Assembly: GCA_029289095.1 (NCBI GenBank)
Contig: JARFUG010000018.1
Coordinates: 18,774 to 51,075 of the forward strand
Direction of reading: 5' to 3'
Source: Desulfuromonadales bacterium
GTDB lineage: Bacteria; Desulfobacterota; Desulfuromonadia; Desulfuromonadales; JACZKF01
DNA: 32,302 bases
Of this stretch, positions 31,465 to 32,302 are shown one piece after another (the stretch's first letter is position 1; each line of letters starts with the position of its first letter). The translations under genes were made by a program, and so were the position numbers. The notes beneath the pieces were generated by a model, which worked only from the letters and a program-made list of their open reading frames with translations, did no database searches and was not told the origin of the DNA.

Positions 31465-32142
31465 ATGGCGAACGCAAGCGAGCAGCAGACCAACATCCTC
31501 GTGGCCTACTACAGCACCTACGGACATACCTTCCAGATGGCCGAGTCGGTTGTCGAAGGGGCGCGCAGCATCCCGGGAACCGAGGTGCGCCTTCGCCGCA
31601 TTCCCGAACTCGAGGAGGCCCGAAAGGCCCTCTCGAAGCAGGACGCCTATGTGAAGGCTCAGGAGCGCCAGGCTGAGATCCCAGAGGTCACCCACGACGA
31701 TCTGCGCTGGGCCCACGGGATCCTCTGGGGCACCCCGACCCGCTACGGCAACATGACAGCTCAGATGAAACAGTTCATCGACACCACTGGAGCGTTGTGG
31801 ATGGCCGGTGACCTGGAGGACAAGGTCACCGGAGTCTTCACCAGCACCGCCACCATTCACGGGGGCCAGGAGTCGACGGTCCTGACGAGCCTCGTGCCTC
31901 TGCTGCACCTGGGGATGATCTTCATCGGCACTCCCTACGGGCAGAATCCGCAGATTCTCGTCACCGACGGCATTGGCGGTTCACCCTACGGTCCCGGCAC
32001 CCTGGCGGGACCCGACGGCTCCCGCCAGCCCGTCGAGTCGGAACTCCAGACGGCACGAAATCTTGGAAGCCGCGCCGCCCGGGTGGCGCAGCGGACCAAA
32101 ATCCTCCGCCAGACCGAAGAGCACGGAAAACAGTCTTCCTAG
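31465..32142 (+). CDS. wrbA: NAD(P)H:quinone oxidoreductase, WrbA type
   Basis: WrbA is a flavodoxin-like FMN enzyme that reduces quinones by two electrons in the cytoplasm. The 225-residue protein has the FMN loop YYSTYGHTFQMA, the motif WGTPTRYGNM, TSTATIHGGQE and the C-terminal GSRAARVA helix. AAAGGAGG lies before the ATG. It has about 20 more residues than E. coli WrbA, mostly insertions and a short tail. The stop TAG is made by a T and the first two bases of the inverted-repeat element at 32141, so that element may have changed the C-terminus. Confidence 0.93.
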   Translation: MANASEQQTNILVAYYSTYGHTFQMAESVVEGARSIPGTEVRLRRIPELEEARKALSKQDAYVKAQERQAEIPEVTHDDLRWAHGILWGTPTRYGNMTAQMKQFIDTTGALWMAGDLEDKVTGVFTSTATIHGGQESTVLTSLVPLLHLGMIFIGTPYGQNPQILVTDGIGGSPYGPGTLAGPDGSRQPVESELQTARNLGSRAARVAQRTKILRQTEEHGKQSS

Positions 32143-32302
32143 TGTTCCGTGCGGTTTATTTCCCTCCATTAATTCTGGTCCTTTTGCCCGCTGGCTGGAT
32201 TGCGTCTCCTCGGCTTAGCTTTGGCCAGGCCGGCGTCGACGCCCCCTGCCAGCGGCCAAAATTGCTCAGAGTTACTTGAAAGGACTAACCGCACGGGACA
32301 CT
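32141..32302. mobile_element. MITE-like inverted-repeat element (162 bp)
   Basis: The left end AGTGTTCCGTGCGGTT and the right end AACCGCACGGGACACT (32287-32302) are inverted copies with one mismatch in 16. The similarity continues inward for about 65 bp with gaps; both sides contain TAA-TCTG, TTTTG-CCGCTGGC and GCGTC. No transposase frame is present. It could be a MITE or a non-autonomous copy of an unknown IS. The last base of the window is the last base of the right end, so flanking target duplication cannot be seen. Confidence 0.7.

Follow-up and report, generated by a model that had tools for sequence, protein, structure and literature searches.

A short repeat of the Desulfuromonadales that takes part in TAG stop codons is very probably an IS630-type MITE

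The wrbA-like gene at the end of a Desulfuromonadales contig stops at a 160-bp element that is very probably a non-autonomous MITE of the IS630/Tc1-mariner type, landing in TA, often within CTAG, and preserving the stop codons that it enters. It is read in this way because its ends are those of a complete IS630-family element found in a relative. Of the features of a MITE, it shows terminal inverted repeats, short length, lack of a transposase gene, many copies and a target site duplication, the last seen from the empty sites of two orthologous pairs; mobilisation in trans is presumed. With the IS630 family the element shares the TA target duplication, and it has ends in common with an element coding for an IS630 transposase; no transposase to match, which a MITE does not need, was found in the draft of its own genome. 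The element's part in forming a TAG stop is general across the family, which is a new one within the known IS630-type MITEs.

The window, the whole stretch of 32,302 nucleotides analysed, ends with the gene and the element listed in Table 1. The wrbA-like protein scored 202.7 bits against TIGR01755 (cut-off 132.5) and 222.1 bits against NF002999 (cut-off 141) and is complete over these models. The relatives found are 45-53% identical to it, and its C-terminus, compared by eye, is about ten residues longer than in all 11 relatives compared.

A preliminary description of this DNA had proposed an inverted-repeat element at 32141-32302 with 16-bp ends matching at all but one position, and the arms 32141-32156 and 32287-32302 are indeed identical at 15 of 16 positions. 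The best 16-base end pair at equal spacing in the rest of the window matched at 12/16, in a scan that ended one position short of the element. The proposed folding back of the whole 162 bp was also borne out: RNA folding of 32130-32302 gave -86.2 kcal/mol, compared with -51.2 (sd 4.1) for shuffled sequences (z = -8.55; 0/200 as good), and the pairing spans the whole length with bulges and internal loops. Similarity of the arms for about 65 bp inward, as had been described, is found when gaps are allowed but not without them, the ungapped match being 43/81 positions. While the inverted repeat stands, the limits of the element had to be moved, as by the logic of the target the core is 32142-32301, and the outer bases, A at 32141 and T at 32302, are parts of the duplicated TA outside the 160-bp core. 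In the same way, of the AG that the left end was said to supply to the stop codon, the G comes from the element but the A belongs to the duplicated target. In the form given, the statement of an element writing the stop codon was not borne out, since only the G is its own and the element-free site already bears the stop in both orthologous pairs examined. No Rfam covariance model matched 31900-32302 at E <= 1, and searches of plasmid and phage collections with the element returned no match.

Table 1. Features at the end of the window, with positions counted from its first base
Feature	Position	Strand	Remarks
wrbA-like NAD(P)H:quinone oxidoreductase	31465..32142	+	225 aa; stop TAG = TA (target) + G (element)
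CTAG at left boundary	32139..32142	unstranded	its C closes codon TCC; TAG follows
Left target-duplication TA	32140-32141		from the sequence and the C-TA-G consensus of 204 ends
Core of the element, very probably an IS630-type MITE	32142..32301	unstranded	160 bp, without transposase gene, end-to-end fold
Left terminal inverted repeat	32142..32156	+	first base is the G of TAG; resembles the ends of the L060 IS630-family element
Right terminal inverted repeat	32287..32301	-	resembles the ends of the L060 IS630-family element
T of right-hand TA copy	32302	unstranded	its A is base 56 of contig C55, if C55 truly adjoins

The 204 ends of 102 copies identified by homology gave the target consensus C-TA-G (C 78%, T 77%, A 91%, G 98%). 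Exact CTAG was present at 110/204 ends, with 33 copies having it both left and right, and the other 94/204 ends differ from it; flanks beyond CTAG showed little base preference. Two orthologous pairs, one site filled and the other empty, were available. In the first pair, the empty CTAGCG in genome G094 (L318) corresponds to CTA-[element]-TAGCG in G093 (L129). In the second pair, the empty TTCTAGG in G097 (L321) corresponds to TTC-TAG at the element in G094 (L134), and in another five orthologues this codon is also the stop, as TAA or TGA. Orthologous filled and empty loci are 79% identical.

Stop codons at other insertions were counted with codon-scored gene calls in the homology set, in which 91 of 95 independent sites were kept after leaving out four with short flanks. 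A gene ends exactly at the boundary TAG in 35/91 sites, compared with 7/117 unoccupied CTAG controls when all loci are used (Fisher p = 6e-9), 7/67 when the 50 genic controls are subtracted (p = 1e-4) and 3/41 at the loci of the homology set (p = 2e-4). Simpler gene calls, based on ORFs only, gave 56/154 copies at a stop against 4/119 CTAG controls, in the same direction. Among 99 gene 3' ends that face an element, 36 lie at exactly the stop-boundary distance. When the flanks of 37 stop-forming boundaries were joined, 26 (25 sites) gave a stop with either copy of the TA, 9 only with their own copy and 2 with neither. The 9 boundaries depend on their own copy because the other has changed; with that mutated copy they fail, and the frame would run on for 208 codons at L023 and 113 codons at L205. 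The 26 boundaries that stop with either copy suggest that most of the stops predate the insertion, and the other 9 and 2 that a few may have been created by it. Counting only the 25/91 secure sites, the Fisher p values were 3e-5 against 7/117, 0.009 against 7/67 and 0.01 against 3/41.

The element is also biased towards gene 3' ends more widely. It lies in a stop codon or up to 100 bp downstream of one at 62/86 sites, compared with 19/66 non-genic CTAG sites, and at 50/71 sites after removal of the 17 at which an ORF spans the joined flanks. Neighbouring genes are convergent at 23 and divergent at 9 of 85 sites, with 539 and 613, respectively, for 2912 intergenic TA sites. Since an insertion breaks the ORF that it enters, insertions in gene interiors were counted from joined flanks, a spanning ORF being one that extends beyond about 40 bases on either side of the site. 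By this measure 17/91 element sites lie inside an ORF (9 of the 17 are also counted as stop sites), compared with 2112/3344 TA sites and 11/41 CTAG sites (p = 0.36 against CTAG). Tolerance of insertions at 3' ends, together with the CTAG that stop codons often supply, would explain the excess of stop sites. As the putative cause of the 3' bias, tolerance is weakened by the finding that the element is not clearly depleted within ORFs relative to CTAG. Special targeting of stop codons was considered and rejected, the ratio of stop to near-3' sites being 35:27 for the elements and 9:10 for the CTAG controls.

A homology search found similar copies in 62/136 genomes and 30/53 genera of the order Desulfuromonadales. 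A sample of 395 genomes from the phylum contained 8 with a match, of which seven belong to the same order and the eighth (G346) has a 29-base piece. A pattern of the element end plus interior recovered 91 stretches from the genome_contigs collection, all in records titled Desulfuromonadales, Desulfuromonadaceae, Desulfuromusa, Pelobacter, Geoalkalibacter or Dive96 'Deltaproteobacteria' bins (two). The loci retrieved were those returned by the searches and 80 hand-picked regions, chosen among the matches listed. They comprised 274 places, 59 partial and 215 full-length, the latter reduced to 171 distinct full-length copies by removal of 44 that were duplicates or were truncated at the end of a locus, and to 154 by merging 17 shared sites. 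The commonest length was 163 (model from TA to TA). Variant forms were also observed: four with 258-328 bp between paired ends (L069, L070, L073 and L074, in G014 and G030), one in which a second core piece directly adjoins the first (L024, in G030), and two very short ones, L071 1450-1521 (G013; 72 bp) and L072 1459-1551 (G014; 93 bp between ends). The titles and abstract beginnings listed in literature searches contained no description of the element, and the multicopy-sequence supplements of papers on Pelobacter carbinolicus and Geobacter metallireducens (PMC3543383, PMC2700814) may contain it.

The kinship with IS630 comes from a complete 1.15-kb insertion sequence in G013 (L060 997-2150), which has similar ends and CTAG on both sides. 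Within it, L060 1045-2136 codes for a 363-aa transposase that scored 285.6 bits against NF033545 (IS630; cut-off 100) and 82.6 bits against Pfam DDE_3 (cut-off 28.6). Fragments of an insertion sequence of this kind, again with similar ends, lie at contig ends in G028 and G016. L060-like transposases were detected at E <= 1e-20 in 9/136 genomes, most of them distant or partial, with a complete and close one only in G013; relatives in G131 (with one stop) and G063 are 80% and 47% identical, respectively. No IS630-type transposase was found in the 154 contigs of the element's own draft genome with the L060 protein and PF13358 as queries. In most of its hosts the element may by now have ceased to move, or the insertion sequence may be absent from the draft assemblies. 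In L313 91-1048 (G093, contig C77), a copy of the element lies within about 50 bases of a match to an IS630-type transposase of another clade, 35% identical to the L060 protein.

By the mechanism proposed for this MITE, a transposase encoded elsewhere would bind the GTGTCCCGTGCGGTTA ends and mobilise the element in trans, cutting it out and pasting it into a TA, preferably one within CTAG. Repair would duplicate the TA to give C-TA-[GTGTCCC...GGGACAC]-TA-G, with CTAG re-formed at both ends. The first base of the element is G and its last is C, so that a TAG or TAA stop hit by an insertion would be left as an in-frame TAG; the gene would then escape truncation and the insertion would be tolerated. 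Such tolerance is the putative cause of the 3' bias. The wrbA gene would have carried a stop before the insertion.

The conservation of the fold was examined on 42 diverse copies (alignment A2; 43 before L253, which has a 5-base insertion, was left out). RNAalifold gave only 20 pairs on A2, and the pairs recurring in the folds of the single copies were used instead, a choice that favours the structure. The resulting 64-pair structure has 85.1% standard pairs on the 42 copies. Changes on both sides were seen at 36/64 pairs and 156 cells, whereas shuffles gave 21.7 and 58.4, and sliding the structure gave no more than 22 and 38. These values are partly built in by the derivation of the structure from the same sequences. 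Between 10 subfamily consensuses, 156/658 differences in paired columns were double with pairing kept (pairwise counts, which are not independent). Among private changes at paired positions, 6/167 were Watson-Crick double changes and 154 were single changes affecting a pair, 42 of them to G-U. From these alignments, pairing therefore seems to be kept in the moving lineage, whether through selection while it transposes or through quasi-palindrome correction, and to erode once a copy has been inserted.

Granted that the element is a MITE, the compensation might be the work of quasi-palindrome correction alone, in which template switching copies one arm onto the other, and not of selection on the fold. 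Compensation between subfamilies and hardly any among private changes would fit such a process, as would the lack of a strand preference relative to the host gene (28/55 copies fold better in the sense strand, p = 0.71), which a DNA-level mechanism would be expected to produce. However, the consensus arms keep constant differences (GGCCCTTTT versus GAGTCATTTT) that frequent correction should erase, and correction within single copies would give private double changes, which are few. This origin of the compensation is thus possible but doubtful.

A structured RNA or terminator that serves the host, retained at the 3' ends of genes in the manner of REP or SPRITE sequences and mobile only in the past, would account for the accumulation of sites in and just behind stop codons, for the excess of convergent over divergent neighbours and for the changes on both sides of pairs. 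A-C mismatches also outnumber G-U mismatches on A2 (232 to 102), a hint of strand bias; but private changes give 57 to 42 and the sense/antisense folds show no bias, and the excess on A2 is read as putatively inherited columns. Against such a role, a consensus scan of the element found no terminator-like site, Rfam had no match, neither strand is preferred relative to the host gene, and private changes mostly break pairs. This explanation is decidedly unlikely. The apparent decay of pairing after insertion and the lack of a strand preference speak against a function conserved for the host at every site, and an effect at some sites is possible.

The preliminary description had taken the element to be multi-copy, named a single genomic copy as the finding that would count against it, and suggested that the contig had been broken there. 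In the element's own genome (G000), 13 matches at 10 places were found, the window copy included, and the single-copy case fails. Of the nine other places, four are essentially full length and 82-92% identical, and one is the 55-base start of contig C55; with further copies on C6 and C125, about a dozen places carry the element. The window corresponds to G000:C114:18774-51075 and the length of C114 is 51075, hence the element ends exactly not only at the end of the window, as described, but also at that of the contig. The final 55 bases of C114 (32248-32302) are identical to C55:1-55, and the match stops at base 56, which resembles an overlap left by the assembler where a repeat branches. Contig C48 likewise ends inside a copy of the element. 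Both the overlap and C48 support a break at a multi-copy element, which is probably the reason for the assembly break at wrbA. Position exactly at a contig end would also suit a chance inverted repeat or a hairpin created by the assembly where the contig ends. This can practically be dismissed, as full-length copies occur in the interior of long contigs from this genome (C77, C91, C12 and C29) and copies also in the single-contig genomes G013 and G014.

C55 is likely to be the true neighbour of C114, the 55-base overlap being the one link between them. Past base 55, C55 reads AGTGCCCCGTACGGTTAGTC, and C55:56-80 is about 92% like an element end over 25-26 bases. If C55 adjoins, the element of C114 may be followed by the end of a second element, recognisable for about 25-35 bases, with a CTAG common to both. 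C55:56-80 is the sole good candidate for a tandem landing. The flanks of L121, L208, L099 and L231 match an element end at 12-13/16 bases, none of them far beyond, and may be remnants of tandem landings for which a regenerated CTAG was the target. The flank of L186 was dropped as a further candidate, its match covering only about 8 bases.

A wider reading would see an order-wide MITE whose fold is maintained in the moving lineage, for which CTAG stops are safe landing sites, and part of whose 3' bias is due to selection for a hairpin behind genes. As a whole this is unlikely, and it is put forward tentatively. If it were true, the re-formed in-frame TAG and the CTAG on both sides would let further copies land at the same stop, as may be the case at wrbA if C55 adjoins. 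For annotators of Desulfuromonadales, the element is a defined repeat with known ends, target and likely parent element. It can break draft assemblies, and it could wrongly pass for a terminator or a small RNA. As it re-forms the stop codon in which it lands, it can serve as a natural probe of the positions at which insertions are tolerated, and filled and empty orthologous sites in sister genomes permit a direct test of transcript effects.

Among known systems, the Chunjie MITE, which has an A+T-rich target, comes from Geobacter uraniireducens, a metal-reducing bacterium and kin to the present host. As described in part of its source, Chunjie is also a MITE, of 178-235 bp (PMC10969869), and was compared by description only. 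The ERIC and Correia elements, likewise compared by description only, are short repeats with a terminal TA, a TSD and highly paired transcripts in the portion of PMC2229807 that covers them, and differ from the element in their hosts. SPRITE of S. pneumoniae resembles it in a strong enrichment near the 3' ends of convergent genes, whereas the relevant section of PMC3049150 gives SPRITE a U-rich terminator-like tail, which the element lacks by consensus scan, and no TIR match to pneumococcal IS. Within the IS630/Tc1-mariner group, a cut-and-paste mechanism was shown for ISY100 (excerpts of PMC2170065), and a preference for CTAG is stated for IS630 of Shigella sonnei in the title of Tenzen and Ohtsubo 1991 (cited in PMC2170065). 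Both share the TA duplication with the element but encode their own transposase, which the element does not. RUP of Streptococcus pneumoniae, 107 bp long and with IS630-Spn1 as its proposed mover, is similar in being short, in its end-to-end fold, in its TA target and in its IS630-family-like ends, as set out in parts of PMC2229807 and PMC3049150. It differs in sequence and host, and those parts are silent for RUP on a CTAG target and on frequent placement in stop codons, both features of the 160-bp element described here.
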